Source of the DNA: Candidatus Electrothrix aestuarii
GTDB lineage: Bacteria; Desulfobacterota; Desulfobulbia; Desulfobulbales; Desulfobulbaceae
Assembly: GCA_032595685.2 (NCBI GenBank)
Contig: CP159373.1
Span: 4,937,821-5,001,820, forward strand
Length of the DNA: 64,000 bases
Reading direction: 5' to 3'
The notes under the pieces: model-generated
The model's database searches: none
What the model saw: only the letters and a program-made list of their open reading frames with translations
Told to the model about the DNA's origin: nothing
Translations under genes and position numbers: made by a program
Shown here: piece by piece, positions 6,664-61,405 of the stretch
How positions within the stretch are numbered: the stretch's first letter is position 1
Layout: each line of letters opens with the position of its first letter

Positions 6664-6680
6664 AAAAGTGTACCAATAAC

Positions 6681-7325
6681 ATGCGCCTCGTTGACTGTTT
6701 CTGTGATCTTTTTGCTCTTGTCCTCAGCCTTCCTGAAAATCAAGAGCAAGATCTTGATGCTCAGCAAACCCAGGAAACCTTTCTCACGCTTGTCGAAGAA
6801 GCCCGCCAGTGTGCCAGGGAACGAGGGTATAACCAGCAGCAATTCGAAGAAGCTCTGTTCGCTGTTACCGTATGGGTTGATGAAACAATACTCTGTTCAG
6901 ACCTTCCATTCGTTACCACTTGGTCAACATATCAATTACAGCTCCATTTCTTTGGCATAAATAACGGCGGCGATCAGTTTTATGATCGCCTTGATGCTCT
7001 TGATCGTCAGAACACACAGCTTTTAGAGGTTTTCGCCTACTGCCTCGCTTTAGGTTTTCATGGTCGGCTCTATGGAGACACAGCTGCTCTGGAAGAACGA
7101 CGCGCTGAGCTCAACAACAGGCTATATGGCGACTCTGCTCCGTCGGACAAACTCTTTCCTGCCAGTTACCGTAGCGGCACGAGCAAACATGGCTATATCC
7201 CACCGAAAATATATGCTCTTCGTACACTCGTGTTGTTCTTGCTTCCCCTGTCAATTCTTATCGGTATCTATTTTATATTTTTTTATCGTCTTGATATCCA
7301 TATGCAATCCATTCTTCGAGGCTAG
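6681..7325 (+). CDS. tssL: TssL (DotU family), T6SS inner-membrane protein
   Basis: 214 residues. The cytoplasmic helical hook domain shows the DotU signatures FAVTVWVDETIL and LQLHFFGINNGGDQFYDRL, followed near residue 186 by a single hydrophobic segment (TLVLFLLPLSILIGIYF) and a very short periplasmic tail. It lacks the OmpA-like peptidoglycan-binding extension found in some TssL proteins. TssL dimerises and joins TssM and TssJ in the trans-envelope complex. It follows tssK by 17 bases. Confidence 0.93.
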   Translation: MRLVDCFCDLFALVLSLPENQEQDLDAQQTQETFLTLVEEARQCARERGYNQQQFEEALFAVTVWVDETILCSDLPFVTTWSTYQLQLHFFGINNGGDQFYDRLDALDRQNTQLLEVFAYCLALGFHGRLYGDTAALEERRAELNNRLYGDSAPSDKLFPASYRSGTSKHGYIPPKIYALRTLVLFLLPLSILIGIYFIFFYRLDIHMQSILRG

Positions 7326-7331
7326 AAGCGA

Positions 7332-10300
7332 GTGATCAAGATGTTGAAAAATTTTTCATGGCTCCTTCTTTTCCTCCTCGTTGTTTTAGTAGCTGGTGCG
7401 GTTGGTTTCTGGGGAATCAATTACCTGGGCTGGCCAACGTGGCTTGGTGTGGCTGTAGGAGCTGGCCTTGTTGGCTGCTTTCTTTTTATTCTCTTCCTGA
7501 AAAAATATCTGGTCCGGCGTAGAGGAAAAAAGCTGGTTGAACAGATTGTCAATCAAGGCCAAATACTAGAAGAGGATGCTACTCCAGACCTACTTCAGGT
7601 ACGAGAGCTTGAAAAAAGCTGGTATGCCAACCTCTCCTTACTCCGCAATTCTCATCTCAGAAGCCGTGGGAATCCTGTCTACGTCCTTCCCTGGTACCTC
7701 GCTCTGGGGGCAACCGGCACAGGAAAAACGACTGCGATAAGTAATTTTGCCTTAGCAACCTCAGTAACCGGAACCGGTCAAGGCTCCCAGACCTCTGCTA
7801 CGCGAAATTGCGATTGGTGGTTCTTGGACAAGGCCGTTGTGCTGGATACGGCTGGCCGTTATGCTCTTCCTGTAGAGGGGACCGGTGATCAAGAAGAATG
7901 GAAACGTTTTCTAAGCCTGCTCGCTAAGCACAGAAAAAGAGAGCCACTTAACGGTATCCTCCTTTTCATAGGCGCTGACAAGATTCGGGAGGCTGCGGAT
8001 GATCTCCTCAGAAAAAAGGGCCAGCTGTTGCGCAATCGCATAGATAACCTGATGCGGACACTTGGGTACAAGATTCCAGTTCGTGTAATTGTCTCCAAGA
8101 TGGATTTCGTCCCTGGTTTTCTCGGCTTTGCCGACAGTGTTACTTCATTTGATCACGATCAAGTGATGGGATACTGGAATCGCCGAGGCAACCCCTACTG
8201 GCAGGAAGTCCTCACTGAGGTCATGCATGAAACCGGAGAACGCCTACGGGAACTCAGACAGGAATATGTGCTCGGAAAAAGAAAGTACCACCCCGACCTT
8301 CTCATTTTTCCAGAAAAATTTGAACAACTTTATAGCGGATTAAGCAAATTTCTCGAACCGATCTTCTCAGAAAATCGATTTCAGGAAACACCCTATCTTG
8401 CTGGCATTTATTTTGGTAGTGGTCGAGCACCAGTTGCGGTCGAACCATCAAAGCAGAAAAAGAGCTTTTCTGAGGGAAAGCGTACCTTTTTCTTTTCCGG
8501 GCTTTTTTCCCGAATCTTGGCCGATGGACGAGAACGCCTTGAACCTGTTAAAGAATTTGTACTTTGGCGAAGAATGACCAGAAGTCTCGGGCTGTTGAGC
8601 TGGTGGCTTTTCTGCCTTTTCTGCGCAGGCCTGATTGGAATATCCTTTCTCAATAACCAGAACAGCCTGGACCGCGCTGAATATATAGCCGAGGAAATCT
8701 CTTTTTCAAAAACAAAGCCTTCTGATCCTGAGGACTTCAACGCCTCAGTCCTGGAACTGGAAAAATTACGCAGAGAAATAATAAAGCTGGAAGGATTGAA
8801 CCAATCCCACACCTTGTCGAATATTCACTACGGCCATGCCGTCAATACAGAGCAAGAGCTCAAAGCACGATTTTGCGACCTCTTTGAATCTGTGCTGCAA
8901 CAGCCTTTAGAGAGACGGCTCGCTCTCATAATCGGTAAAGTGAATACAGGGACTTCAAACGAACTTTTTGCAGATTATGCCTCTTTCAGCGTAGAATACG
9001 TTTACTTGTTAAAAAAATATCTTCAGAAAAAACTTACCGGAGAAGTGAGCCCAGAATTTAGTCCGGCAGCAGCGCGTCTTCTTCGTTTTTCAGATGGAAC
9101 AATCTCTTCCGAGGTAGCTAGTACTTTTGCTGAATTGAATACTTACTATCTCTTTTGGACGAAAGACCGCAACAGAGCTGTATCCCGGCTCAAAATTCTT
9201 CAATCTGACCTCCTGAAACTACTCGCTAACAGGACTATCGACGTTTCCTGGCTTTACCAGGCTTCTATTACAGGTACTGATCCCGTCACCTTGAGTGATT
9301 TCTGGTCTCATATCTTGCCAAAGAGATATAACCTGCTTTTCCTGGTGGAAGGTGCTTTTACAGAAAACGGACGCAAAAATATTTATGCCTTCTTTGATAT
9401 GGCTGCTGAGGCTATGAAGCCACCAGCGGATGCGGCTTCTTTCTCCTTACCAGACAACGTAGAGGAGGACGCAGGTCTATCTGGGGACAAGATACTCTCT
9501 ACGCTCTGGCTGCGTTTTCAACAGCTGTACCAAACGGACTTTTTTACCCGCTGGTATAATTTTGCAGAGAATTTTCCTATCGCACGCTTATCCCTTGATG
9601 AGAATAACTGGCGCGAAGCTGCCATCCGTATGACCAAGGCCTCCAATCCCTACTTCACCCTTCTCAGAACAATGGCAAAGGAGCTCAAGGACTTTGCCCA
9701 TGACCAAGATTTCCTACAACACCATAACTGGTTAAAAGAAAAAAATAAAATCGAGAAAGATGAATCGACACTGGGCAAAGTAAACAAGGTTGATATTCCT
9801 CCTTGGGCCGAAACCATTATCTCATTTGAAGTGGTGCGGAACCGTGCTGAAGAACTTCAGAAGGCTGAAGGGAAAGGCGCATCGGGCCTTGCAGCTAAAT
9901 TAAGCGGCGGGGTCAGTACACTCACAAATGCGGCAGCAAGTAAGCTCAGTAAAGTTGGGGCAGGGCTCGACAAAAAAAAGGCAGAAGCTGTTGTTTCCGA
10001 GACCGACCTGGCCCTTGCATGGGATGCATACCAGGAGGCATTAACAGGACTTGAGGCAGCAACACCTTTTAAAGAAAAAACTTTTCAGGTGTTTGGCAGT
10101 TGGTTCAAAGAAGCTGTTAATCCAGGTGATGAAGTATCATTATACGGCAAAACATATCAAGCTGTTGGCACACTTCATGGACTGGCTAAAGGAAAGTATG
10201 AAAATGCTATTGCCTGGCAACTAATTGAAGGACCATTTGACTTCCTCACGGAATTTGGTCTGCGAGAAAGTGCTGCTGTCCTTCAACAACAATGGGAGGA

Positions 10301-10991
10301 ACAGATTGTCGCGCCAGCAGAGACCATTGATCCCAATAAAATCCCCAGTTTCCTTTTTGAAAAAGAAAGCGGTGCAGTATGGAAATTTGTTAAAGGCTCT
10401 GGAGAGCCTTTTCTGCAAAACACGGTACATGGATACCAATCAAGGGAAGTTTTCGGACGTTCCTTGGTTTTTGAATCTTTCCTCTACACATTCCTTGACC
10501 AAGGAGCCTCCGTGGTTATCAATAAACAGTCTGATTACCGAATCGAAATCAGCAATCGCCCCATGAAGGTCAATAGGGATTCCACAGAGGAACCTTATGC
10601 CTCCGTCGTCACCGTACAATGTGCTGAGGACAAGATCATCCTAGAAAATGACAATTACCCGAGAACGCAAAACTTTACTTGGTCACCGGATAGATGCGGA
10701 GATGTCAATTTGACTATTGAATTCCCTAGTGCAACCCTGCACAAATCCTATAAAGGAAATATGGCTTTTGCTCACTTTCTCTCAAAATTTGTTGATGGTG
10801 CCCTTCATTTCACTCCAGAAGACTTTCCAGAAGAAGAAGGTCATCTCCGCAATTCAAATATCAGAGAGATTATATTAACATATGCTCTTAGCGGGCAGGA
10901 TCCTGTTCTTCGATTACTGGAATTAAAACCCGAGGTCCCACAATCCATTGCTCTGCCTGAAAAGCAGCATGGAGAGGTTGTTTTTAACTGA
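7332..10991 (+). CDS. tssM: TssM (IcmF family), T6SS inner-membrane scaffold
   Basis: 1,219 residues. Two N-terminal membrane helices (about residues 8-30 and 36-56) are followed by a cytoplasmic NTPase-like domain with Walker A GATGTGKTT at about 126-134 and VVLDTAGRY as the Walker B region. A third membrane helix lies near residue 425 (LLSWWLFCLFCAGLIG), and a long periplasmic region ends in the TssJ-binding part. The start may be GTG at 7332 or ATG at 7341; neither has a decisive ribosome-binding site. The Walker A motif is intact, unlike in some TssM proteins. It follows tssL by 6 bases. Confidence 0.95.
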   Translation: MIKMLKNFSWLLLFLLVVLVAGAVGFWGINYLGWPTWLGVAVGAGLVGCFLFILFLKKYLVRRRGKKLVEQIVNQGQILEEDATPDLLQVRELEKSWYANLSLLRNSHLRSRGNPVYVLPWYLALGATGTGKTTAISNFALATSVTGTGQGSQTSATRNCDWWFLDKAVVLDTAGRYALPVEGTGDQEEWKRFLSLLAKHRKREPLNGILLFIGADKIREAADDLLRKKGQLLRNRIDNLMRTLGYKIPVRVIVSKMDFVPGFLGFADSVTSFDHDQVMGYWNRRGNPYWQEVLTEVMHETGERLRELRQEYVLGKRKYHPDLLIFPEKFEQLYSGLSKFLEPIFSENRFQETPYLAGIYFGSGRAPVAVEPSKQKKSFSEGKRTFFFSGLFSRILADGRERLEPVKEFVLWRRMTRSLGLLSWWLFCLFCAGLIGISFLNNQNSLDRAEYIAEEISFSKTKPSDPEDFNASVLELEKLRREIIKLEGLNQSHTLSNIHYGHAVNTEQELKARFCDLFESVLQQPLERRLALIIGKVNTGTSNELFADYASFSVEYVYLLKKYLQKKLTGEVSPEFSPAAARLLRFSDGTISSEVASTFAELNTYYLFWTKDRNRAVSRLKILQSDLLKLLANRTIDVSWLYQASITGTDPVTLSDFWSHILPKRYNLLFLVEGAFTENGRKNIYAFFDMAAEAMKPPADAASFSLPDNVEEDAGLSGDKILSTLWLRFQQLYQTDFFTRWYNFAENFPIARLSLDENNWREAAIRMTKASNPYFTLLRTMAKELKDFAHDQDFLQHHNWLKEKNKIEKDESTLGKVNKVDIPPWAETIISFEVVRNRAEELQKAEGKGASGLAAKLSGGVSTLTNAAASKLSKVGAGLDKKKAEAVVSETDLALAWDAYQEALTGLEAATPFKEKTFQVFGSWFKEAVNPGDEVSLYGKTYQAVGTLHGLAKGKYENAIAWQLIEGPFDFLTEFGLRESAAVLQQQWEEQIVAPAETIDPNKIPSFLFEKESGAVWKFVKGSGEPFLQNTVHGYQSREVFGRSLVFESFLYTFLDQGASVVINKQSDYRIEISNRPMKVNRDSTEEPYASVVTVQCAEDKIILENDNYPRTQNFTWSPDRCGDVNLTIEFPSATLHKSYKGNMAFAHFLSKFVDGALHFTPEDFPEEEGHLRNSNIREIILTYALSGQDPVLRLLELKPEVPQSIALPEKQHGEVVFN

Positions 10992-11000
10992 CAGGATAAC

Positions 11001-12632
11001 GTGAATAGAGAACAGATAAAAAATCTCGGCAAAACTCCGATAGATGGTGATTCACCCGTTGGCAAGGATGTTAGCTACGAACCAAATTTCGAGGAACTAA
11101 CCAATGAATTAGAGAAACTCTCCTCGCCCACAGCTGAAGGGGGCGTGAATTGGGAGCGTGTTGCTGAACTTGGCATAACAATTCTTCGCGACGAATCAAA
11201 AAATCTCGTGGTTGCCTGTTATCTCAATGTAGCTCTCCTCTACACAGAAAATTTGCAGGGATTTGCAGTTGGAGTCCATATTCTTCGCAATATGCTGGAC
11301 ACTTGGTGGGACACAATGTATCCCCCAAAGAAGAGAAAAAAAGGGCGAATCAATACGCTCAATTGGTGGAATGAAAAACTGCTTCAACTCTTGCCTGAAC
11401 AGGAGATAGAGACATGGCCTAGCGACCAACGACAGCAACTCCTTGAGGACCTTGACTGCATTGATGCCCTGATCGCAGAAAAGCTGGAAGATGGCCCCAT
11501 GCTCAGGCAATTAAAGGATATGATCTCCCGGTTAGTCAACGAAGAGGCTCCTCCTGAACCTGCTCCTGAGCCGATACAGGAACCAGAGCTTGACCCGGAA
11601 CCTGAGCCAGAGAAACAAAAAGTACCTGCTACCCCACCCGAGCCGTCGGAACAGGAGAGCAAAAAATCTAAACCATCTTCTTCACCACAGGTAGCTCCTC
11701 CAGCTGAAGATGACAAAGAGGCCGCAGGGTATCTCCGTCAAGGACTGAATCTGCTTGGCCGTGCAGCGACACAGGTTTTTCAAACAGATATGGCAAAGCC
11801 CTTACCGTATCAGCTTAATCGCCTTGTTGCCTGGAGCGAACTTGATGGGCTACCACCGGCCACAAACAACGTCACCATGTTGCCTCCACCTGATGAACAG
11901 ATTGTTTCTCTCCTTGAAAAAATGTTTCAAAACGAAAACTGGGAGAATCTGCTGGAGGCCGCAGAGTCCAGAGTGAGAGAACACCTATTCTGGCTGGACC
12001 TGAGTTATTACGCCTTCAGGGCTTTGAAAGGCTGCGGACATTTACTAGCAGCTCAGGCTGTGGAGACAGAAACCCGGCTACACGTTCTTCGCTTACCTGG
12101 CATCGAATTGCTCTCTTTCAACGATGAACGTCCCTTTGTCTCGCAGCAGACCAGAGATTGGCTTGCCTCCCCGCCTCCTGCTGGGCAAGGAGGAGGAGCC
12201 ACACCCTCTCCTTCCTCTGAAGCAACAGGTGAAGAGCAGCAACAGGAGGTTGTTCAGCATGTGGAAGAGGCTATCCGTGTCAGTGCCAGTTCCGGTATCC
12301 AGGAAGCCCTCACCTGGTTGACGGAAAAGAAAAAAAGCGCAACATCGCCTCGCCAGGAGTTTATGTATGATGTGGGGTTCTGCCGCCTGCTTTTCCAGGC
12401 TGACCGAACCGACATGTCCCTTTCATTTGCTGAACATCTGCTTATGCTAATTGATCAACACAACTTAGAAAAATGGGAGCCTAAACTGGCTGTACAGGCC
12501 TTAGTTGCATCGTATCAATGTCTCTTAAAAAACAATGTTATTCTTAATGAAGACGAAGTGCTATTACAAAGAAAACAAGTTATGGATCGACTTGCTTTAC
12601 TTGCCCCTGACCAGCTATTCTTATTGATATAG
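11001..12632 (+). CDS. tssA: TssA (ImpA/VasJ type), T6SS sheath-assembly cap protein
   Basis: 543 residues from a GTG start with AGGA upstream. The N-terminal ImpA_N domain shows PIDGDSPVGKDVSYEP and the following NLVVACYLNVALLY helix; a Pro/Glu-rich linker (about residues 175-240) leads to a VasJ-like C-terminal domain. TssA coordinates baseplate docking and tail polymerisation. It starts 9 bases after tssM and ends the first T6SS transcription block, since a promoter-like region follows. The C-terminal type is assigned by general resemblance only. Confidence 0.9.
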   Translation: MNREQIKNLGKTPIDGDSPVGKDVSYEPNFEELTNELEKLSSPTAEGGVNWERVAELGITILRDESKNLVVACYLNVALLYTENLQGFAVGVHILRNMLDTWWDTMYPPKKRKKGRINTLNWWNEKLLQLLPEQEIETWPSDQRQQLLEDLDCIDALIAEKLEDGPMLRQLKDMISRLVNEEAPPEPAPEPIQEPELDPEPEPEKQKVPATPPEPSEQESKKSKPSSSPQVAPPAEDDKEAAGYLRQGLNLLGRAATQVFQTDMAKPLPYQLNRLVAWSELDGLPPATNNVTMLPPPDEQIVSLLEKMFQNENWENLLEAAESRVREHLFWLDLSYYAFRALKGCGHLLAAQAVETETRLHVLRLPGIELLSFNDERPFVSQQTRDWLASPPPAGQGGGATPSPSSEATGEEQQQEVVQHVEEAIRVSASSGIQEALTWLTEKKKSATSPRQEFMYDVGFCRLLFQADRTDMSLSFAEHLLMLIDQHNLEKWEPKLAVQALVASYQCLLKNNVILNEDEVLLQRKQVMDRLALLAPDQLFLLI

Positions 12633-12694
12633 TGCTGTTGGCACCACGAAGTACCGAAGTACCTGCTCATAGGAACTCAATAAAATTTTAGTTA

Positions 12695-12735
12695 TTGACA
12701 GTATTTATATTGGTGCTATTTTTTTGATAGCACCA
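12695..12735 (+). promoter_or_regulatory. Candidate promoter with overlapping inverted repeat upstream of tssB
   Basis: A perfect -35 TTGACA (12695-12700) is followed after 16 bases by TATTTT (12717-12722). Overlapping the -10 is an inverted repeat TGGTGCTAT / ATAGCACCA (12711-12719 and 12727-12735, loop of 7). It could be an operator or a 5'-UTR hairpin for the sheath genes. The start of tssB is 32 bases downstream. Confidence 0.45.
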
Positions 12736-12766
12736 TGATATTAATTATGAAATAAAGAGGAAGAAT

Positions 12767-13252
12767 ATGGCACAGCAAGGATCTGTCGCACCTAAGGAAC
12801 GGGTTAACGTTGTTTATCGGCCTGCAACCGGAGATGCAAAGGAAGAAGTTGAGCTCCCTCTCAAGGTGCTGGTGATGGGCGACTTCACTTTGCGGGAAGA
12901 TGATCGCGCTGTTGAAGACCGAAAACCCATCAATATCGACAAAGAGAATTTCAATGATGTCCTTGCCGGACAAAAGCTTAAATTGAATACTGTTGTTCCA
13001 GACACCCTGTCCAGTGAGCCAGATGCGGAAATGGCTCTTGAGCTTGATTTCAACTCAATCAAAGATTTTTCTCCAGACGAAATAGTAGAAAAAGTCCCAC
13101 AACTCAAACAATTACTTGAGCTACGGGAAGCACTGAAAGCAGTTAAAGGACCTCTGGGGAACGTCCCGGCGTTCAAAAAGAAACTTGCATCTCTTATGGA
13201 TGATGAAGAAGCCAGGGCAAAACTCCTGGCAGAGCTCAAGATTGAGGTATAA
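12767..13252 (+). CDS. tssB: TssB, T6SS small sheath subunit
   Basis: 161 residues with the TssB/VipA/ImpB pattern: the conserved ERVNVVYRPATGD start, the strand LPLKVLVMGDF near residue 27, and the C-terminal helical region KKLASLMDDEEARAKLLAEL. TssB pairs with TssC to form the contractile cytoplasmic sheath. A good ribosome-binding site (agaggaag) precedes the ATG. It probably starts a second transcription block from its own promoter, and tssC follows 17 bases later. Confidence 0.96.
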   Translation: MAQQGSVAPKERVNVVYRPATGDAKEEVELPLKVLVMGDFTLREDDRAVEDRKPINIDKENFNDVLAGQKLKLNTVVPDTLSSEPDAEMALELDFNSIKDFSPDEIVEKVPQLKQLLELREALKAVKGPLGNVPAFKKKLASLMDDEEARAKLLAELKIEV

Positions 13253-13269
13253 AGGAGCAGTGAAAGAAT

Positions 13270-14757
13270 ATGTCTGAAAAACAACAGGAAACAGCGCAGG
13301 AAGGGGCAGTTCAAGAGGGAGAATCAATTTCTCTGCTGGACGAGATCGTTCGTGAGACGAAACTCTCACCCGGCGATGACGGCTATGATGTTACAAGACT
13401 TGGGCTGCAGACATTTATAGATGCTTTGCTCCAGCCCGACCGGGCAGAACATCGAGTGAGTCAAGGCTTGGTTGATGAAATGATAGCTGATCTGGATGAT
13501 AAACTCTCCAGACAGATGAACTCAATCCTCCATAATAAAGAGTTCCAGCAGCTGGAGTCGGCCTGGCGTTCTCTCAAGTACCTTGTTGACCACACGGATT
13601 TTCGGGAAAATACCAAAATCGAAGTATTGAATGTCAGCAAACAGGATCTGATTGATGATTTTGAGGACTCCCCGGAGATCGTCAAATCTGGTCTCTATAA
13701 ACTTGCCTATACAGCCGAGTATGGTCAATTCGGTGGACAACCCTACGGGATGATGGTGGGCAATTTTGACTTTGGCCCAGGCAATCAGGATATGGCGTTA
13801 CTTCGTAATATAGCGAGCATTGCCTCTATGTCACATGCGCCATTTACAGCCGCAGCAGGTCCGTCCTTTTTCGGTCTTGACGATTTCTCTGGATTACCTA
13901 ACTTAAAGGATCTGAAATCCATCTTTGATGGTCCCCAGTATGCAAAATGGCGTTCGTTACGCCAGTCCGAAGATTCGCGCAATGTGGGCCTTGCCCTTCC
14001 TCGCTTTCTTCTTCGCCTCCCCTACGGTTCGGACAACATTCCTGTAAAGAGCTTTCATTACAACGAGGATGTTTCTGATGGGGATCACCATTTTCTCTGG
14101 GGCAATGCCGCGTTCGCCTTTACAGCCAGAGTGACAGACAGCTTTGCCAAATACCGCTGGTGTGCCAATATCATAGGGCCACAAGGAGGTGGTGCGGTTG
14201 AAGATTTGCCTCTGTATCAGTTTGAGGCAATGGGCGAATTGCAAAATAAAATTCCTACCCAGATTGAGATCTCTGATCGACGAGAGTTTGAGCTGGCCGA
14301 AGAAGGATTTATGTCTCTGACTATGAGGAAAGGTAGTGATAATGCAGCATTTTTCTCGGCAAATTCTATTCAGCAGCCCAAAATTTTCCCTAATACAGAA
14401 GAAGGAAAACAGGCTGAACTCAATTATAAACTTGGAACCCAGTTACCTTACACCTTTGTTGTCAGCCGTATTGCCCATTATCTGAAGGTACTCCAGCGGG
14501 AAAATATCGGTACCTGGAAGGAGCGCGGTGAACTGGAGGATGAGCTCAATAACTGGATCAAGCAGTATGTGTCAGATCAGGAAAATCCTGGGTCAGGTGT
14601 TCGTAGTCGACGACCACTGCGCAAAGCAAAAATCGAAGTTTCAGATGTTGCTGGTGAACCTGGATGGTATAGGGTAGGTATGCAACTACAGCCACACTTT
14701 AAGTACATGGGGGCATCGTTCACCCTGTCACTCGTAGGTAAACTGGATAAATCGTAA
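13270..14757 (+). CDS. tssC: TssC, T6SS large sheath subunit
   Basis: 495 residues, the usual length. TssC/VipB signatures are visible: LESAWRSLKYLVDHTDF, EYGQFGGQPYG, the WRSLRQSEDSRNVGLALPR block and the C-terminal HFKYMGASFTLSLVGKLDK. With TssB it builds the contractile sheath around the Hcp tube. AAGGAG lies upstream of the ATG with a somewhat long spacer. It is followed by hcp after 61 bases. Confidence 0.97.
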   Translation: MSEKQQETAQEGAVQEGESISLLDEIVRETKLSPGDDGYDVTRLGLQTFIDALLQPDRAEHRVSQGLVDEMIADLDDKLSRQMNSILHNKEFQQLESAWRSLKYLVDHTDFRENTKIEVLNVSKQDLIDDFEDSPEIVKSGLYKLAYTAEYGQFGGQPYGMMVGNFDFGPGNQDMALLRNIASIASMSHAPFTAAAGPSFFGLDDFSGLPNLKDLKSIFDGPQYAKWRSLRQSEDSRNVGLALPRFLLRLPYGSDNIPVKSFHYNEDVSDGDHHFLWGNAAFAFTARVTDSFAKYRWCANIIGPQGGGAVEDLPLYQFEAMGELQNKIPTQIEISDRREFELAEEGFMSLTMRKGSDNAAFFSANSIQQPKIFPNTEEGKQAELNYKLGTQLPYTFVVSRIAHYLKVLQRENIGTWKERGELEDELNNWIKQYVSDQENPGSGVRSRRPLRKAKIEVSDVAGEPGWYRVGMQLQPHFKYMGASFTLSLVGKLDKS

Positions 14758-49898: not shown

Positions 49899-52253
49899 TC
49901 AACGTTCATTTCCAGTAGCGTTCTCACAAACTTTACATGCCTCATCCTGCTCCCAAACCGGGCCATTTGCCGTATCATGGACAATAACCCCTTTTTGCAG
50001 GAGTTCCGTCCTGGCCTTATCTGCTGTTACCCAATCCCGGCGGCAGCGGGCTTCTTCCCGCTGTTCAATCAAGCGATTGATTTCTGGAGCAAGAACACAT
50101 CGCTCCAAACGGAGAAAACCCAGCACTCGGTTCATTTTTCGGAGAAGGGCAAATATCTCATTTTTCTGATCCTGATCCAAGCTGCCAGCATAAAGAATAG
50201 GATTCACCTTTTTTATAAAATCAAATAATGCTCCTATGGCACCAGAGATATTTAGATCATCATCCAATGCGGTCACGAACTGATCCTCCAACTCCGTGAG
50301 CAAGGAACGGATAATCGGGTGAGGTAACCCTGGGTGCAGACAACCCAACTTCCGGGTGAACTCATCGATTCTCTTTAAGGCCTTTCGGATAGCATCCAGT
50401 TTCTTATAGGTAAAATTCATGGACTTCCGATAATGCACGCCAAGCAGCATAAAACGGAGTTCACGCCCGCTATACCCTTTCTCCAGCACCTCCTGAAGAC
50501 TCACTACATTCCCTGCTTCTGCTGACATCTTCTTGCTGTCTTTCAGCAGCATCCCGGAATGCAGCCAATAATTGGCCAGAGGCTTGCCAGTCAGAGCCTC
50601 GGCAATGGCAATCTCATTTTCATGATGAGGAAAAAGTAATTCCTGCCCACCAGTATGGATATCAAGGGTCTTGCCCAGATAGCGGGTGGACATGGCAGTA
50701 CATTCGATATGCCAGCCTGGACGGATATTCCCCCAATCGGTCTCGTAGAAAATTCCTTTTTTCAGCTCCCCCAGAGTGGAACGCTTCAGCAGGGTAAAAT
50801 CCCTGGGATTTCCCTTCTCATAATTATCCAGATCCACGGTACGCCCGACCTGAATCTTGCTCAGATCAACCCCGGAGAGCTTGCCATATTGAGCAAATTT
50901 CGAGATATCAAAATAAATGGAGCCGTGTTTTTCATAGGCATAACCCTTATGGATCAACTCATGGGCGATTTCAATCATATCGCCAACATGCTCGGAGGCC
51001 CTGGGATAACCGGAAAAATCATTCATGCCAAGACAGCTAATCGCCTCGCGGAACTGAGAGATATGTTTTTCCGTAAATTCTGCCAGCGGCTCTCCAGCCT
51101 TTTCTGCCCCAAGGATGGTATTATCATCCAGGTCAGTGAAATTCATAAATGATTCCACTTCCAAACCCTTGAATTGCAGATACCGGATCATCAGATCAGC
51201 AACCACCAAACGACGGCAATGGGAGAGATTCGGCGACTCATAGGCTGTGGGGCCGCAGGCGTAAAAGGTAACCTTTCCTTCCTGAAGAGACTTGAAGGGC
51301 TCTTTTTTGCGAGTAATAGTGTTGTACAGACAGAGTTGCTGCGTTGCGCTTCCTGGCTTTTCCTTGCGGATAAAAAGCGGCGTGCTCAGATAGCGCTCAC
51401 CACCATCTGGAAAGATAGCCAGAACATAAGCGTCTTTCTCTTTCTTGGCCTGCTCCATTGCAGCAAACATGGCAGCCCCGGAACTCATCCCGACAAAAAC
51501 ACCCTCTTCTCTGGCCAATCTGCGGACCGTGCAAAAGGCATCCTCATCCTGGACATTGACTATTTCATGCGGGACATGCTTGTCAAATATCTCAGGACGA
51601 TACGACTCCTTCATATTTTTGAGCCCCTGAATCTTATGGCCGAAATAGGGCTCCACCGCAATAACCCGAACTGAAGGATGGCGCTCCCGGAACCAAATGG
51701 AGAGTCCCATAGCTGTACCTGAGGTCCCCAACGTGGTAATAATATGGGTGACCTTGCCCTCGGTCTGTTGCCAGATTTCCGGGCCAGTGCTCTGGTAATG
51801 GGCCTGCCAGTTGGCTGGATTATTAAACTGGTCAGTCAAGAAATAACGATCCGGGTATTCACGGGCCAGGGCATAGGCCTTTTCAATCGCCCCATCGGTG
51901 GAACGGGCTGCCGGAGTCAGAATGATCTCCGCACCATAGGCCCGCATAATCTGACGGCGCTCTATACTGGCGGATTCCGGCATGATGAGCTGGCACCGGT
52001 ACCCCTTGGCAGCGCAAACCATCGCAAGCCCGATACCTGTATTACCACTGGTGGCCTCAAGAACAATTTTCTCAGGGGTGAGATCCCCACTTTTCTCACC
52101 GACCTCAATCATGTTTAAGGCCGGTCTATCCTTGACCGAACCTCCCGGATTCATGCATTCCAGTTTCGCATGGATTTCTCCGGCGCCTGAAGGACGCATT
52201 CTCTGCAAGGAGACAAGAGGAGTATTACCAATAAGATTAAGAAGGTTCATCAA
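49899..52253 (-). CDS. Fusion of a cysteine synthase (CysK/CysM-like) to a cysteinyl-tRNA synthetase-like protein
   Basis: 784 residues. Residues 1 to about 305 are a PLP-dependent cysteine synthase: NTPLVSLQRM, PGGSVKDRPA (Lys-PLP), ATSGNTGIGLAM, TLGTSGTAMG and GMSSGAA. Residues from about 308 resemble CysRS: FYACGPTAYE, GWHIECTAMS, HTGGQELLFPHHENEIA, DDDLNISGAI and the C-terminal WVTADKARTELLQKGV, retaining the zinc ligands. However the HIGH-type motif (normally HIGN) reads N-L-S-H at about 341-344, and KMSKS reads K-M-S-A-E at about 574-578. The second domain may therefore have changed activity. A standard cysS elsewhere would support that. The minus strand reads away from the tRNA-Arg gene. 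Confidence 0.9.
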   Translation of the reverse strand: MMNLLNLIGNTPLVSLQRMRPSGAGEIHAKLECMNPGGSVKDRPALNMIEVGEKSGDLTPEKIVLEATSGNTGIGLAMVCAAKGYRCQLIMPESASIERRQIMRAYGAEIILTPAARSTDGAIEKAYALAREYPDRYFLTDQFNNPANWQAHYQSTGPEIWQQTEGKVTHIITTLGTSGTAMGLSIWFRERHPSVRVIAVEPYFGHKIQGLKNMKESYRPEIFDKHVPHEIVNVQDEDAFCTVRRLAREEGVFVGMSSGAAMFAAMEQAKKEKDAYVLAIFPDGGERYLSTPLFIRKEKPGSATQQLCLYNTITRKKEPFKSLQEGKVTFYACGPTAYESPNLSHCRRLVVADLMIRYLQFKGLEVESFMNFTDLDDNTILGAEKAGEPLAEFTEKHISQFREAISCLGMNDFSGYPRASEHVGDMIEIAHELIHKGYAYEKHGSIYFDISKFAQYGKLSGVDLSKIQVGRTVDLDNYEKGNPRDFTLLKRSTLGELKKGIFYETDWGNIRPGWHIECTAMSTRYLGKTLDIHTGGQELLFPHHENEIAIAEALTGKPLANYWLHSGMLLKDSKKMSAEAGNVVSLQEVLEKGYSGRELRFMLLGVHYRKSMNFTYKKLDAIRKALKRIDEFTRKLGCLHPGLPHPIIRSLLTELEDQFVTALDDDLNISGAIGALFDFIKKVNPILYAGSLDQDQKNEIFALLRKMNRVLGFLRLERCVLAPEINRLIEQREEARCRRDWVTADKARTELLQKGVIVHDTANGPVWEQDEACKVCENATGNER

Positions 52254-55986: not shown

Positions 55987-56604
55987 CTATAGAAAAGGGC
56001 TAATATCCCCTTTACCTTCACGGAGAATTTCCGGCTGCTCTGTAAGCAGAGAAATAACAGTTGAAGGATTAGGAAACACCTCTCCTCCATCAATAATCAA
56101 GTCCACATCATTCCCAAAGAGCTCTTCAACGTCAAAGGCATCGATAACGGGTTCAACGTGCTCTTCCAGTATGGCACTGCTATTCAAAAGAGGATTACCA
56201 AATTCTTCAATCACTGCTAAACAAATAGGTGAATCCGGCACCCTGATACCAACGGTTTTCTGTTTGGTCAGCATAATTTTCGGTACCAGCTTAGAACCAG
56301 GCAAGACCAGAGTATAAGGTCCTGGGAGATGTTTCCGCATCAGGCGATAGGAGGTATTCCCTACATGAGCATACTCGCTGATATTTTTCAAAGATGAACA
56401 CATAAAGGAGAAAGGCTTCTGCTTAGGACGTTTTTTGACCTGATGGACCCGCTTGACCGCCTTTTGATTAAAAATATCACAGCCAATACCGTACATGGTA
56501 TCAGTGGGATAACAGACAACACCTCCTTTACGCAACGTATCAACCACCATACTAATAAGACGGGGTTGGGGGTTATATGGATTGATCTCAATACGTTTTG
56601 CCAT
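55987..56604 (-). CDS. YrdC/Sua5/YciO-family protein (threonylcarbamoyl-AMP synthase-like)
   Basis: 205 residues. VDTLRKGGVVCYPTDTMYGIGCD, KKRPKQKPFSFMC, LPGPYTLVLPGS, TVGIRVPDSP and the C-terminal GEVFPNPSTVISL are the usual YrdC-domain motifs. Family members make threonylcarbamoyl-AMP for tRNA t6A, although YciO-type paralogues are less well defined; overall length and the PKQKPFSFMC stretch are YciO-like. It is convergent with the TamA-like gene. Confidence 0.88.
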   Translation of the reverse strand: MAKRIEINPYNPQPRLISMVVDTLRKGGVVCYPTDTMYGIGCDIFNQKAVKRVHQVKKRPKQKPFSFMCSSLKNISEYAHVGNTSYRLMRKHLPGPYTLVLPGSKLVPKIMLTKQKTVGIRVPDSPICLAVIEEFGNPLLNSSAILEEHVEPVIDAFDVEELFGNDVDLIIDGGEVFPNPSTVISLLTEQPEILREGKGDISPFL

Positions 56605-57154
56605 GTCTTTTCAGAAACTCCCACGAAATGAAGTAGTCTTTCGTTCTTTAGAACTTGTACAACCTGCGTGCTCGCCATGCTGATTTAAAAAGAGCCGATT
56701 GTACACAGAAATGTGGCATCAGACAAGTATCCTGCCTCTCTTTTCTTTTTTTCTTTCCCTCTCGAACGCTCCTGACATTTTACGACACCCAGTGCCCTAT
56801 TTTGTTTTTCCGATCATGAACAACCTCTTTCCTTAGATTTTCTCCCCCACATTCTTTATCCTCCTCAGAAACCTACGAGACCAGCAAACTCTCCTTAAAA
56901 ATTAGGGAGAATAATTCGACTTGTTGTACTATAAAAAATACGGTATGATTTTTTATACTCCTCTATCTTTCCATCAAAAGAAGCTGGCGCATATTTTGCA
57001 TATATCATAAAATAGACTCGCCCCCTCTATAATCAATATTTAAGAGAGATCAGGCCGACGTCATATTTCGTTGATCCTCCCCAAAAGGGAGGGATGGGGA
57101 TCCATACTGTTTCTCGTGCAAGACACGTCGAACCTTCAACCTTATTTCAACAAC
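56605..57154. other. Long leader region upstream of the E2-like gene with inverted repeats
   Basis: About 550 bases without a gene. A 10-bp AT-rich inverted repeat TATAAAAAAT / ATTTTTTATA with an 8-base loop lies at 56930-56957, and a GC hairpin CCTCCC / GGGAGG at 57077-57093. They could regulate the large gene that follows; the frame could also start at TTG 57071, which has no better signal. Confidence 0.5.
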
Positions 57155-59647
57155 ATGGCCTCAGAAAAAGACCAACTTGCCCGCGATTTCGAAGAAATCA
57201 ACAAGCTCCTGGCCCAATATCCGCAAATCCATATCGAAAAGACGGAAGGAAGCCCTCCTGCGACCTACGAAATAAGCTATCAGCTTAAAGGGTTGACACG
57301 TCAGAAAGACGGTCGTATCGACCAGGCAGATCGACACCTCTTACGCATCAACCTTCCATTCGGCTATCCTCACTTTCCGCCCACCGTCAAACCGCTAACA
57401 CCGCTTTTTCACCCTGACATTGATCCTGATGCTGTACGCATAGCCTCCCATTGGCAACAACATCCCTCTTTGGCGCAACTTGTTCTCCATATTGGAGAAA
57501 TGATTTGTGCCCATCAGTACACTCTGGAAGAGCCCTTTAATCAAGAGGCAGCGGATTGGTATAGTGAACACACAAAGGACTTCCCTTTAGATGAAATTCA
57601 GCAGGGTGATGCTGATTTTCAGGTAGGTGAGCTTTCTATGGAGGGAGGAGAGGATGAGCTTAGCTTCGGTCTGGAACTCGATATCCCGGAGCAGAAGCAA
57701 GAAGAGCAACAAGATGATTTTGACCTAAATCTGGAGATAAAAGATACCCCAGAAGAAGATGTTAACGCGCAATTAGAAGAGATCCAATATCATATCGACA
57801 GAAACGAGGTCGTCACTGCGAGCAAACTTCTTGCAGACCTCTCCTCATCTTCGCCAGAAGCGCAAAACCTGAAAAAAACCGTTTCTACAGCGCTTGCCAA
57901 TAGAGATAAACTTCTCAGAAAGATAGAAGAACTGGAGAATGAAGATAGATTTGCTGATGCTTATAAGATTTTTAAAAAAGTACAGGCAATCGCTGTCGAC
58001 ACTCCGGCCTTGTCTGATATCGGGCAACGGCTGCAACAATCCCAGGCCATGCTGGATGCCTTTGCTCAGCCAAAGCAAAAGCAAAAGCAAAAAACGGATG
58101 AGCAGAAATCTCTCACAACCGATCTTCCACCAAATCAAAACGGTGGAAAAAAGAAAAAAAAGACTCCCCCCCCGCCTCCAAACAGCACGCAACAGGGAGC
58201 TCCTCCAAAAGCACCAAAACCCAGCAGACCGCCCATTGAAATTCCGATCAAGCCTATCCTGATCGGCCTTACTCTTCTCGCTCTCGGAGGAGGTGCCACC
58301 TTCCTCTACACCAGCGAGATGGACAAGATGATAGAGATAGAACGCAAGTGGATTGAAATCAAATATCAACGTCCCCATACTCCTGATCAATTCAAACAAA
58401 AGCACATTCAAGCCGAGCAACTTCTCATCACCCTCAAATCGGTCCACCTTCCTGGTCTTGGCAAGGAAAAGCTGGAGACAGAAATCCTTGATCTGATTAA
58501 CTCGCCTGAATTGAAAAAAGGAGAATCAGGAGATAAGGAATACAAAGGTGTTCCTCTCCCAGCTCCACTCATCAAGAAATTGATACCCATTGACGAGAAC
58601 ATAGTTAAAGCTGCCAAGGCTGCCGAAAAAAAAAGATTTTCTACGGCTTTATCCCTGTATCAAGATGCACTTACGCTCGCAGAAAATGCCAAACCAAGCC
58701 CTTTGGACCCTCAATTTGAGATAATGAGCAAGGAGCTGGATAAACGAACCCAAGATATCAAGGCAAGGCTCGCCAAGGTTCGTGAACAAAAACAGAAGGA
58801 AAAACGGCTTGAAAAACGTCAACAGGCCGAAAAAAAACTCATCCAAAGTCTTCTTTTTTTTGAAGAGCTTAAAAAAAAGAATAATTCTTCAGAAGAAGGA
58901 TTGAATATATACGAGCTATGGAAGGAATGCACCAAGCGATTGATGCAGGCGGAACAGCTCCTCAACGATAATCCAGAAATCAACTCCCAGAAACGACAAG
59001 AAAAAATAAAAACTTTCCTTGCCTATTCACGCCTTTACCAATATCTTGAAGCAGCCCGAGCTGCTTACGAGCAAGGTGATTTTGCTAAGGCAATTGAAAA
59101 ATATCAAAGCGCCTTGGGTCTGCTTGATGAAGAACGTGTACTCTTTGATACATTTTACGAAGAAAACATCAAGATAAAAAGAACTATTCTCAAGCTTACT
59201 ATTACCCTGGAGCTCAGAAATGCCGTTGATGAGGAAACAAAGGCCAATGAAGCCCAAATCGATGAAGAAAAACAAAAACACATAAAGAATGCCCTGATGC
59301 ATTATAGACAAGCCGTAGAGACCATCGACACCTCCAAAATCGACAAAGATAAAAGCATCAAAGATTTGGAACGATATATTAATTCAAAAATAAACGAGTT
59401 GAGCCTTAAAAATGCTAAAAGCAGCAACCAAGAATGGTGGCAAAAAAATTACGAACGTATCTTTACAAAAGAGTTCCCCTCTATTCGCCCCTCTCTCTTA
59501 AGCAAGCCGAGAATTGAGTTCGTCAAAATAGAACATGGGCGATTACTGTACATCATCCGCTGCTCAGAGAGAGGAATAGGTTTTGAACTCACCTACCAGT
59601 ATAATCTGGCAACTGGCAAATGGAGCCCTTACCGAGAGAAACTATGA
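57155..59647 (+). CDS. Large membrane protein with N-terminal E2/UBC-like domain and helical repeats
   Basis: 830 residues from ATG (an in-frame TTG at 57071 would add 28). Residues about 1-150 resemble a ubiquitin-conjugating (E2/UBC) fold: FEEINKLLAQYPQI, the LPFGYPHFPPTVKPLTPLF segment, HPDIDPDAVRIAS and the closing EEPFNQEAADWYSEH. The position of the catalytic Cys reads A-S, so it is probably inactive, like UEV proteins. An acidic linker (about 190-220), helical repeats, a Pro-rich stretch with C8 tract, one membrane helix (about 365-384, KPILIGLTLLALGGGATFLY) and a long TPR-like helical domain follow, ending in a small globular domain (SRERGIGFEL-like). No conjugation partners (E1, JAB) are adjacent. 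Function unknown. Confidence 0.7.
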   Translation: MASEKDQLARDFEEINKLLAQYPQIHIEKTEGSPPATYEISYQLKGLTRQKDGRIDQADRHLLRINLPFGYPHFPPTVKPLTPLFHPDIDPDAVRIASHWQQHPSLAQLVLHIGEMICAHQYTLEEPFNQEAADWYSEHTKDFPLDEIQQGDADFQVGELSMEGGEDELSFGLELDIPEQKQEEQQDDFDLNLEIKDTPEEDVNAQLEEIQYHIDRNEVVTASKLLADLSSSSPEAQNLKKTVSTALANRDKLLRKIEELENEDRFADAYKIFKKVQAIAVDTPALSDIGQRLQQSQAMLDAFAQPKQKQKQKTDEQKSLTTDLPPNQNGGKKKKKTPPPPPNSTQQGAPPKAPKPSRPPIEIPIKPILIGLTLLALGGGATFLYTSEMDKMIEIERKWIEIKYQRPHTPDQFKQKHIQAEQLLITLKSVHLPGLGKEKLETEILDLINSPELKKGESGDKEYKGVPLPAPLIKKLIPIDENIVKAAKAAEKKRFSTALSLYQDALTLAENAKPSPLDPQFEIMSKELDKRTQDIKARLAKVREQKQKEKRLEKRQQAEKKLIQSLLFFEELKKKNNSSEEGLNIYELWKECTKRLMQAEQLLNDNPEINSQKRQEKIKTFLAYSRLYQYLEAARAAYEQGDFAKAIEKYQSALGLLDEERVLFDTFYEENIKIKRTILKLTITLELRNAVDEETKANEAQIDEEKQKHIKNALMHYRQAVETIDTSKIDKDKSIKDLERYINSKINELSLKNAKSSNQEWWQKNYERIFTKEFPSIRPSLLSKPRIEFVKIEHGRLLYIIRCSERGIGFELTYQYNLATGKWSPYREKL
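58166..58173 (+). repeat. C8 tract in the proline-rich linker of the E2-like protein
   Basis: Eight C residues code for part of K-T-P-P-P-P-P-N. The frame is intact, but loss or gain of one base would cut the protein before its membrane helix. Confidence 0.5.
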
Positions 59648-59953
59648 GTGGTGATGGTTATGCCCGTCACCATGACTATGTCCATGACAGTGATCATGCT
59701 TACGCGAACAGTGATGATGGTGCCCACCACCTGGCGCATCCAGAGATCCACCTGCCTTTTCCAGGGCCTCTTCAAGGCTGTTTTGCGCCTTCTGCAAAGA
59801 CTGGACAGCCTCAGCAAGCAGTTGGGCGACTTCAGGCGAATCGCTGCTCAATTTATCGACCCATTGAGCAAATTCCTTCCCATGTCCTTGATTATGATCA
59901 ATCCAATGCGGCAGCATAACACGTAATTTATCAAGATCATTCATTGTGGACAT
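59642..59953 (-). CDS. Histidine-rich small protein, probably metal-binding
   Basis: 103 residues. N-terminal helical part (LDKLRVMLPHWIDHNQGHGKEFAQW, EVAQLLAEAVQSLQKAQ) and a C-terminal tail of about 30 residues packed with His (GGGHHHHCSRKHDHCHGHSHGDGHNHHHS-like, with two Cys). Similar proteins occur beside nickel or zinc handling genes and are assumed to store or chaperone the metal. It ends 6 bases inside the 3' end of the E2-like gene (convergent), and its neighbour is a CooT-like nickel protein, supporting nickel. Confidence 0.75.
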   Translation of the reverse strand: MSTMNDLDKLRVMLPHWIDHNQGHGKEFAQWVDKLSSDSPEVAQLLAEAVQSLQKAQNSLEEALEKAGGSLDAPGGGHHHHCSRKHDHCHGHSHGDGHNHHHS

Positions 59954-60082
59954 CTCAAACTCCTTTATGTAGACATTTCTCGTTTTATTCTTGTTTCACC
60001 TTCTTCATAATGCACCCCTTCTGCGAGACGGGAGCACCCACCGCGCTACGCTCTCTATCCAGCACAGCACAGCTCTTTGGCA

Positions 60083-60289
60083 TCAGGCTTCATCGGGAAG
60101 ATCTGGCGCCAGCACCACAGAGCCCCCCAGAAAATCAATCCGCTTGATTGAGGCATGAGCAACGGTCATCGGTTCCTCAAAATAGGTCCGAAGAATTATT
60201 CCCTGCTGAGTCACCTCAAGGCCAGTCACTCCCTCCATCAAGGTTTCCTGCGTTCCCTCTCGCTCCATCACTGCATTTAGCTGACACAT
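60083..60289 (-). CDS. CooT-family nickel-binding protein
   Basis: 68 residues from ATG; a longer in-frame reading upstream is unsupported. The M-C-Q-L-N start with Cys2, the METLMEGV-like early strand (TLMEGVTGLEV) and the end IKRIDFLGGSVVL match CooT proteins, small dimers that bind one Ni through Cys2 and are linked to maturation of carbon monoxide dehydrogenase. No CODH gene is in the window. Next to it lies the His-rich protein. Confidence 0.75.
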   Translation of the reverse strand: MCQLNAVMEREGTQETLMEGVTGLEVTQQGIILRTYFEEPMTVAHASIKRIDFLGGSVVLAPDLPDEA

Positions 60290-60415
60290 TATTTCACTCG
60301 CTATGCTTGGTTGCTCTCGATTAATCGTATTTATTGCATCGTGTTCTTCCCCACCAACGCCCCTTTCACCCCTCTCTTCCTGTTGGACCAAGAACACGCT
60401 ATCTTACTTACAAGA

Positions 60416-61405
60416 TTAAATAAGAAAGCGAAATTCGCCCTTTCCTAAAAGATCGTGCAGATGAAGAATCCCTTCTACCTCATGCTCCCTTCCTACCACA
60501 GCCAGCACAGTAATATCCTTACTCTGCATGAGGCTGAGGGCATCAGCAGCCATAAGCTCCCCGGAAATAGTAATAGGCTGTTTCGTCATAACCTCTGCGA
60601 TCTTTTTCCTGCCCTTTCCGGCTTCCCCTTCCAGCCATTTTTCTTCAAGGAGATAACGTCTCAGGTCACCATCGGTAATAATGCCGCATAATGTCCTGTT
60701 TCCCTCAATAACCAAAACAGCCCCGATATTTTTCGTGTTCAATTCGGCTATGGCTTGCTCCAGGCTGTCTTCTTTTTTGATCATCGGTATCTTATCACCA
60801 GAGAGCATAACCTCACGGACAGCCACCTTCAAGCGCTCTCCCAAGCTGCCCCCAGGATGATTACGACGAAAATCTTCTGCTCTAAATTGCTTCCGCTGGA
60901 GAAGGGCAACAGCCAGGGCATCGCCCAAGGCAAGGGTAGCCGTGGTGGAGGTAGTCGGAGCCAGTCCCAGGGGACAGGCCTCCCGAGGCACCGCAACATT
61001 GAGGGTAACAGCTGCTGCTTTGGCCAAAGTCGAATTGCTGTTCCCGGTCATGGCGATGATCTGCACGGAACGATTTTTCAGGCTTTCCAGTAAGAGATTC
61101 AGCTCCGCAGTCTCACCAGAATAGGAAATAGCCAAAACAACATCTGTGGAACTGAGCATCCCCAGGTCCCCGTGCATGGCTTCCACCGGGTGGAGAAAAA
61201 ATGAAGGGGTACCGGTCGAATTCAGGGTGGCAGAAATTTTCTGCCCTACCAAACCGGACTTGCCAATTCCACTGATTACCAGCCGAGTCGGGCAACCCAT
61301 AATCAGGTCTACGGCCCGGACAAATTCCTCGCCCAATGCATCACGGACAGCGGTAATACCTTCTGCCTCTACTGTCAGCACCTCCCTGGCCTGCTCGACT
61401 GTCAT
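60416..61405 (-). CDS. kdsD: D-arabinose-5-phosphate isomerase (KdsD/KpsF/GutQ family)
   Basis: 329 residues. SIS domain with GIGKSGLVGQKISATLNSTG, the HPVEAMHGDLGML motif and ISYSGETAELN; then LAPTTSTTATLALGDALAVAL, KHPGG-like RRNHPGGSLGERL, and two CBS motifs (MIKKEDSLEQAI, ITDGDLRR, TKQPITISGEL, DITVLAVVG). It interconverts ribulose-5-P and arabinose-5-P for Kdo in lipopolysaccharide. Its ATG overlaps the stop of the upstream reductase gene by 4 bases. Confidence 0.96.
   Translation of the reverse strand: MTVEQAREVLTVEAEGITAVRDALGEEFVRAVDLIMGCPTRLVISGIGKSGLVGQKISATLNSTGTPSFFLHPVEAMHGDLGMLSSTDVVLAISYSGETAELNLLLESLKNRSVQIIAMTGNSNSTLAKAAAVTLNVAVPREACPLGLAPTTSTTATLALGDALAVALLQRKQFRAEDFRRNHPGGSLGERLKVAVREVMLSGDKIPMIKKEDSLEQAIAELNTKNIGAVLVIEGNRTLCGIITDGDLRRYLLEEKWLEGEAGKGRKKIAEVMTKQPITISGELMAADALSLMQSKDITVLAVVGREHEVEGILHLHDLLGKGEFRFLI

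Follow-up and report, generated by a model that had tools for sequence, protein, structure and literature searches.

A predicted membrane protein of Candidatus Electrothrix aestuarii carries an E2 domain with arginine at the catalytic position and belongs to a conserved chromosomal family

The gene investigated here lies in a window of 64,000 nucleotides of the Candidatus Electrothrix aestuarii chromosome (contig CP159373.1, positions 4,937,821 to 5,001,820; the source assembly is one contig of 5.1 Mb). An earlier reading, made from the sequence alone, proposed that the open reading frame (ORF) at 57155-59647 encodes a membrane protein with a ubiquitin-conjugating (E2)-like domain. We found that residues 1-152 of the 830-amino-acid product are a genuine E2/UBC domain, that Arg95 stands at the position of the catalytic Cys, and that relatives are split at this canonical position: of the named loci, which are the best 80 of 109 confirmed relatives, 41 carry Arg, 34 Cys and 5 Lys. 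This split is new here. The reading that we favor, and consider moderately probable, is that the domain is a putatively non-catalytic docking module, similar to the ubiquitin E2 variant (UEV) domains, within an inner-membrane scaffold or sensor protein. The sequence-only reading had suggested a non-catalytic binding module of a membrane complex, and such a module is still the best reading of what would be its role. We refer to the protein, for its E2 domain and transmembrane (TM) helix, as E2-TM; its features are as follows.

57155..59647, + strand: E2-TM protein gene, 830 amino acids (ORF; homologues in relatives over most or all of its length)
57155..57610, + strand: E2/UBC (UEV-like) domain, residues 1-152, predicted cytoplasmic (Pfam, PDB profile match, AlphaFold2, Foldseek, VIA)
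57407..57418, + strand: FHPD, residues 85-88, counterpart of the E2 HPN motif with Asp for Asn (all 55 rows of the structure alignment; aligns with HPN of UBE2C)
57437..57439, + strand: Arg95 at the catalytic-cysteine position (alignments)
57452..57454, + strand: Trp100, the E2 tryptophan after the active-site loop (all 55 rows; UBE2C alignment)
57611..58069, + strand: acidic linker and predicted cytoplasmic helical segment, residues 153-305 (sequence; weakly conserved, missing in the short members L194-L196)
58070..58255, + strand: Lys/Pro-rich juxtamembrane segment, residues 306-367 (sequence; positive flank)
58256..58312, + strand: single TM helix, residues 368-386 (hydropathy 1.75, the protein's highest; next best 0.90)
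58313..59644, + strand: predicted periplasmic domain, a helical array, residues 387-830 (AlphaFold2; only generic helical-repeat matches)
59510..59629, + strand: sheet of four strands at the C-terminal end of the ectodomain, residues 786-825, in which C.E and Lel.Y.Y are conserved (AlphaFold2 secondary structure, conservation)

Profile and structure searches agree on the fold of the N-terminal domain. Pfam UQ_con matched residues 1-182 with E = 5.1e-9 (36.3 bits, cut-off 27) and the whole protein with E = 5.5e-8, and it fits better than the RWD model PF05773, which reached E = 0.14 on residues 1-182 (12.8 bits versus a cut-off of 22.8). A PDB profile search with 24 family members found UBE2C at E = 4.7e-11 and aligned its active-site segment to the variable Arg/Cys column of the family. 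The AlphaFold2 model, based on a 55-row structure alignment of the window protein and 54 of the 80 named loci, has a predicted local distance difference test (pLDDT) score of 94 and a predicted template-modelling (pTM) score of 0.89. It shows the N-terminal helix, the four-stranded meander and the helices after the active-site loop that make up the UBC fold. Foldseek matched this model to E2s and to a chain of the Fts-Hook complex, with E-values of at least 2.5e-6 and template-modelling scores of 0.55-0.68, and the best VIA match was UBE2S (Z 13.8, root-mean-square deviation 3.1, 132 residues). Structure prediction and fold search confirmed the E2 core that the sequence-only reading had claimed; the motif blocks on which it had relied, YPHFPP, FHPD, Trp100 and PFNQEAADWY, are conserved family-wide. 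A chance motif match is ruled out by the UQ_con score, the UBE2C profile match and the AlphaFold2 model. The E2 domain is also the best conserved part of the protein, with a mean column identity of 60% versus 33% in the ectodomain alignment (the window protein and 54 of the 73 named loci longer than 600 amino acids).

The window protein departs from active E2s at two positions, having Arg for the catalytic Cys and Asp for the HPN Asn, and as an E2 fold without a catalytic Cys it resembles a UEV. The active-site loop is three residues shorter than that of UBE2C. Cys118 lies in the helix after the catalytic site and is not invariant (Cys in 30 of the 55 rows). All 31 Arg rows of the structure alignment retain FHPD, Trp100 and Asn129. 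The HPN Asn is used for ligation in classical E2s, and its replacement by Asp in all 55 rows argues against ordinary ligation even by the Cys members.

The absence of the Cys, which the sequence-only reading had noted, holds for the window protein but is not a family trait, as 34 of the 80 named homologues have the canonical Cys. Homologues with a catalytic Cys elsewhere in the domain would have counted against that reading; homologues with a Cys were found, but theirs is at the canonical site itself. In 136 aligned domains (137 rows less one short row, L207; duplicates and outgroups included), the catalytic column holds 74 Arg, 46 Cys, 7 Lys, 2 Ala, 2 Trp and one each of Pro, Ser, Gly, Asp and Thr, where Trp, Thr and Asp come from outgroup rows or a divergent member. 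We built a tree from 83 of these rows (the window, hand-picked unnamed loci and the named loci minus rows more than 88% identical, with most of L031-L069 left out). The window protein falls in a clade of 41 rows without Cys (37 Arg, 2 Ala, 1 Gly, 1 Pro; support 100/96), the Lys rows form one clade (100/99), and a second Arg pair, from Desulfobia, groups with Cys rows (94/79). By parsimony, Cys versus non-Cys requires three changes within the family. Two genomes, G071 and G176, each carry one Cys paralogue and one non-Cys paralogue. Separately, G190 has a Ser-type member (L205, contig C51) and an Arg paralogue (L195) on another contig. Because the relatives split between Cys, Arg and Lys at the canonical site, the window protein looks like a clade-specific pseudo-E2. 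The presence of Arg, Lys, Ser, Ala, Gly and Pro at one column would fit relaxed or lost catalysis. The family ancestor may have been an active E2 from which Cys was lost several times, since classical E2s and the closest E2 outside the order (locus L191, described below) have Cys at that column.

The single membrane helix and the acidic linker proposed for the remainder of the protein were both recovered. In 78 of the 79 family proteins of at least 300 amino acids (the window protein included), one 19-residue segment and no second exceeds a Kyte-Doolittle value of 1.6; the exception, L088, is cut by a contig end. The N-terminal flank of the helix is net positive in 75 of the 79, which suggests an N-in/C-out topology. 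The short members L194-L196 (532-537 amino acids) have the TM helix soon after the E2 domain. The AlphaFold2 model of residues 385-830 is a confident helical array ending in four strands (pLDDT 93, pTM 0.68). The ectodomain is thus a long helical domain, as the sequence-only reading had it, but 'TPR-like' fits it only loosely, and that reading had missed the small C-terminal sheet. Neither TPR nor another specific ectodomain fold was accepted: all Pfam TPR models fell below cut-off on the window protein, Foldseek counted no matches to the ectodomain model at E ≤ 0.001, the best VIA match had Z 10.4 with a root-mean-square deviation of 27, and both programs pointed to nothing beyond generic helical repeats. 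A weak MIT match in the ectodomain (E = 0.0045) was below cut-off, and NCBIfam gave no family above cut-off for the protein.

The E2-TM family is a conserved chromosomal family. The window protein matched 38 of 57 sampled relatives (its own genome included; G043 by a weak ectodomain match only). The 38-row family alignment leaves out the fragments L034 8685-9059 and L058 as well as L061, which was outside the phmmer limit of 1e-3, and L057 and L059 were left out of the conservation line and the search profile. The E2-domain profile matched 128 of 192 genomes of the class, with a single match in 122 of the 128. In the phylum sample it matched 12 of 395 genomes, only two of them (G525 and G221) outside the order, and among the relatives of G221 and G525 matches were limited to the query genome itself and Desulfobulbales members (3/59 and 2/60, respectively). 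The named records are assigned to Desulfobulbaceae, Desulfocapsa, Desulfurivibrio and unclassified Deltaproteobacteria or Proteobacteria assemblies, and they include the cable bacteria Ca. Electrothrix gigas and aarhusensis. Phage and plasmid cargo were considered and ruled out: viral contigs gave 22 pattern-matching stretches, none confirmed by tblastn, and plasmids gave no match with window residues 1-182. A literature search pairing Electrothrix or Desulfobulbaceae with ubiquitin or ubiquitin-conjugating found nothing relevant, and titles and abstract openings held no description of the E2-TM family, most subscription journals being outside the scope of that search.

The sequence-only reading held that bacterial E2s normally occur with E1 and JAB genes and that this one does not. 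The second part is borne out, as the matches to both in the window's own genome (G000) lie elsewhere on the chromosome, with none inside the window. In addition, we recognised by eye no E1, JAB or Ubl (ubiquitin-like protein) gene among the recurrent neighbour clusters. However, the closest cousin outside the order is accompanied by E1, JAB, RING and Ubl genes. This E2, at locus L191 in G525, is the best match outside the order (profile E = 4.6e-37) and is alignable over its length. It has Cys at the catalytic column, a weak zinc-ribbon match follows the E2 domain, and this E2 was not found in the other sampled genomes of its own family. Its neighbours on the same strand encode a subtilase, an AAA ATPase, DnaJ, Prok-RING_1, FHA, JAB, E1 (ThiF) and a YukD-like Ubl.

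L191 3907-14479 (G525), one strand: complete run of Ubl-conjugation genes, with the RING, FHA, DnaJ, AAA and subtilase genes in it

The other match outside the order, L192 in G221, is a 1054-amino-acid protein whose E2 domain has no Cys. It also has helical repeats and, as judged by eye, a TM-like segment.

Components of Ubl conjugation were also counted in 115 genomes of the class, 81 with and 34 without the E2 family. The YukD-type Ubl, the only Ubl model searched, was found in none of the 115, with a positive control in Bacillus subtilis. Prok-JAB exceeded its cut-off in 35 genomes, 18 of the 81 with the E2 family and 17 of the 34 without (read by hand from the listed matches), so there is no positive link between the two. 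ThiF-family proteins occur in 112; most listed frames are about 200-400 amino acids long, and by this size most are probably cofactor enzymes. Two Ubl-type loci, L180 and L189, were considered as sources of partners and are not supported, as an E1-bearing frame above 500 amino acids was found only in G006 and G000 among the 57 relatives. L180 is itself a Ubl-type system in a cable-bacterium relative: an operon-like run (5820-13482 in G006, same genus) encodes an E1 (ThiF, 767 amino acids), a 177-amino-acid E2-like protein (UQ_con just under cut-off, HPN present, Cys one residue downstream of the aligned column) and three JAB proteins, one of which has a weak E2-like N-terminus and another, by eye, a likely TM segment. 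L189 (7260-9605; G000 C1:4363259-4365604), in the window's own genome, encodes a 781-amino-acid protein that matches JAB at its N-terminus and E1 at its C-terminus, and a 347-amino-acid ORF with a JAB match below cut-off precedes it.

The E2 gene had been described as standing alone. Where both flanks were recognised it does lie between opposite-strand genes, but in 69 of the 80 named loci, none of them from the Electrothrix lineage, a DUF4388 gene is divergent upstream of it (34 of 41 Arg, 31 of 34 Cys and 4 of 5 Lys loci). The product combines a conserved N-terminal region that contains Cys with a DUF4388 domain (alignment of 13; Pfam match in L045), which we take to be the domain also called PATAN. 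Among the 11 loci without this gene, three have only 364-602 bases upstream, five have a Sua5-like gene (all in Electrothrix or its sister group) and three are others. Matches to the short-form partner better than 1e-22, read by hand among the matches listed (down to about 1e-19), occur in 98 of the 128 E2-bearing and in none of the 64 E2-lacking genomes. Weaker matches to DUF4388 reach further: at 1e-12 they occur in 131 of 192 genomes, a few of which lack the E2 protein. NCBIfam gave no family above cut-off for the two partner proteins scanned. Long partner forms of about 350-360 amino acids adjoin three Cys-type members.

L051 7636-8691: long-form partner gene (Cys-containing N-terminus, extra middle, DUF4388-like end)
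L053 11925-12998: long-form partner gene of the same layout
L055 7854-8945: long-form partner gene of the same layout

The inserted middle of the L055 form, the only long form scanned, matches CRP at E = 2e-10, below the model cut-off. PATAN domains are mentioned in papers about type IV pili and motility as well as cell polarity and heterocyst pattern, which is a lead rather than evidence. The short paralogues L194 and L195, in turn, have a small same-direction gene just downstream; at L194 6524-6907 (- strand) and L195 9696-10097 (+ strand), directly downstream of a short Arg-type paralogue, these encode proteins of about 130 amino acids that are similar by eye.

We propose that the E2 fold, predicted to be cytoplasmic and with Arg95 in place of the catalytic Cys, would act as a protein-docking surface in the manner of eukaryotic UEV domains, and that the predicted periplasmic helical array with its small C-terminal sheet would form the other interaction surface. 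The fold most likely derives from the E2 of a bacterial Ubl-conjugation system, from an ancestor resembling L191. Early in the order it would have gained a TM anchor and an ectodomain by fusion, and the gene would since have been retained on the chromosome. The cytoplasmic partner is, in most lineages, probably the divergent DUF4388 product. We count in favor of docking that conservation is highest in the E2 domain even though 46 of the 80 named members lack the Cys. A bolder form of this proposal, which we regard as improbable, is an order-wide transmembrane signalling unit in which a ubiquitin-conjugating fold has been taken out of Ubl chemistry. The E2 domain would read a cytoplasmic signal via the DUF4388/PATAN protein, at least one long form of which includes a CRP-like part, and relay it across the inner membrane to the periplasmic scaffold. 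The nucleophile would have been swapped for Arg or Lys in some lineages, while in others the Cys would still serve some reaction.

The docking reading has to be weighed against a family of membrane-anchored E2s that still work in the Cys lineages, using a cofactor-type E1 (MoeB/ThiF-like) and a MoaD/ThiS-like carrier, with the Arg and Lys members decayed or regulatory. The canonical Cys that 34 of the 80 named loci encode and the near-universal ThiF proteins are in keeping with it, as is the coexistence of Cys and non-Cys paralogues in G071 and G176, which recalls the pairing of Ubc13 with a UEV. We nevertheless hold a working E2 to be unlikely, as Cys rows too have FHPD for HPN, the active-site loop has a three-residue gap relative to UBE2C, the recurrent neighbour clusters yielded no recognisable E1, JAB or Ubl gene, and the ThiF frames would mostly belong to cofactor enzymes. 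TSG101 binds short proline-rich peptides, and the E2 domain could do likewise, possibly with the protein's own Lys/Pro-rich segment, so that self-binding gates the protein (a logic like that of ESCRT-I, without membership in it). The Pro-rich segment, which comes after the E2 domain and before the TM helix, would suit such gating, and the top Foldseek match is a chain of the Fts-Hook-FHIP complex, which we take to be the UEV protein FTS/AKTIP. L194-L196, however, have only a short stretch between E2 domain and TM helix, the linker is poorly conserved, and the MIT match is below cut-off; we give self-binding very little credence. It is also very unlikely that the E2 domain is an architectural relic, used only for folding or anchoring while the ectodomain does the work: the variety of residues at the catalytic column in different lineages could be explained in this way, but the domain is the protein's most conserved part.

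Several observations weigh against a non-catalytic docking module with a DUF4388 partner. The Foldseek scores to E2s are only moderate (0.55-0.68). Members of the family may be active, since 34 named ones keep the canonical Cys, and there may be a carrier other than the YukD-type Ubl, the only model searched. A non-Cys ancestor explains the three changes as well as repeated loss of Cys does; the case for an ancestral Cys comes from homology with active E2s, and the long branches of the outgroup rows may be joined falsely. Concerning the partner, many of the 98 matches span only the DUF4388 half, the co-occurrence counts carry no correction for shared ancestry, and weaker matches (1e-12 to 1e-19) occur in E2-lacking genomes such as G037, G045 and G085. 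Among all seven sampled genomes of the window's genus that carry the E2 protein, the best partner match is 2.4e-19, and in the four of genus g10 none is better than 1e-18, so the partner cannot be essential there.

The position of the ORF given by the sequence-only reading was exact: an ATG stands at 57155 and the stop codon ends at 59647. An alternative TTG start is possible at 57071, but the family alignment has an almost invariant Met1 at 57155. The surroundings of the gene in the window are as follows.

56605..57154, no strand: divergent intergenic region, 550 bases (no Rfam match)
55987..56604, - strand: divergent neighbour, which we take to be a Sua5/YciO-like threonylcarbamoyl-AMP synthase gene (named from the sequence)
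59642..59953, - strand: convergent gene for a small His-rich protein (6-base overlap with the end of the E2 gene)

The 550 bases in front of the gene had been called a leader; the length is right, but they form the intergenic gap to the divergent gene and match no Rfam family at the gathering threshold. A known RNA leader is ruled out, as Rfam had no match in 56000-60500. The small His-rich protein gave no family above cut-off in a Pfam scan, and in 51 of the 80 named loci the convergent gene downstream codes for such a protein or for KpsF, some of the others having little sequence there. Further away, a 784-amino-acid ORF (49899-52253, - strand) appears by eye to be a cysteine synthase fused to a cysteinyl-tRNA synthetase; a similar ORF lies near the E2 gene in L031, L032 and L068, and in L034 its counterpart is split over two ORFs of 571 and 174 amino acids.

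Among known systems, classical E2s (UBE2C, UBE2S and UBE2D) share with the window protein the fold, the PP motif, the HP-x motif, the Trp and the closing helices; they differ in that the window protein has Arg for Cys, Asp for Asn, a shorter active-site loop and a fusion to a TM helix and ectodomain. The bacterial Ubl-conjugation operon at L191 has an E2 alignable over its length, with Cys where the Cys-type family members have it, whereas the window protein has a membrane anchor and an Arg in that column, and lacks Ubl, E1, JAB and RING neighbours. Catalytically dead E2 folds are well known in eukaryotes. The UEV domains there (UBE2V, TSG101, AKTIP/FTS) too have an E2 fold without the catalytic Cys, and a non-covalent role is likewise proposed here; yet no ubiquitin is known for the window protein, its domain partners are others, and it is UEV-like by fold alone. 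Prokaryotic E1/E2/JAB operons, and inactive RWD-like E2 domains within them, have been described (Iyer et al. 2006, PMC1779556), and in the sections of that paper available to us these domains (row 6e) are proposed to bind Ub moieties. They resemble the window protein as bacterial inactive E2 folds; unlike it, they are encoded with a poly-Ubl and E1/JAB, while the window gene has no such neighbour and its product has a TM anchor. The prokaryotic dead E2 folds in those sections thus belong to Ubl operons, and the E2-TM family stands outside such an operon. Here an order of sulfur bacteria has kept the fold as part of a membrane protein with a conserved chromosomal gene, in versions that have Cys, Arg, Lys or Ser at one site. 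In cable bacteria the protein persists without a strong partner match. The family offers a natural series for asking how an E2 turns into a binding module, and it comes with a named candidate partner gene.

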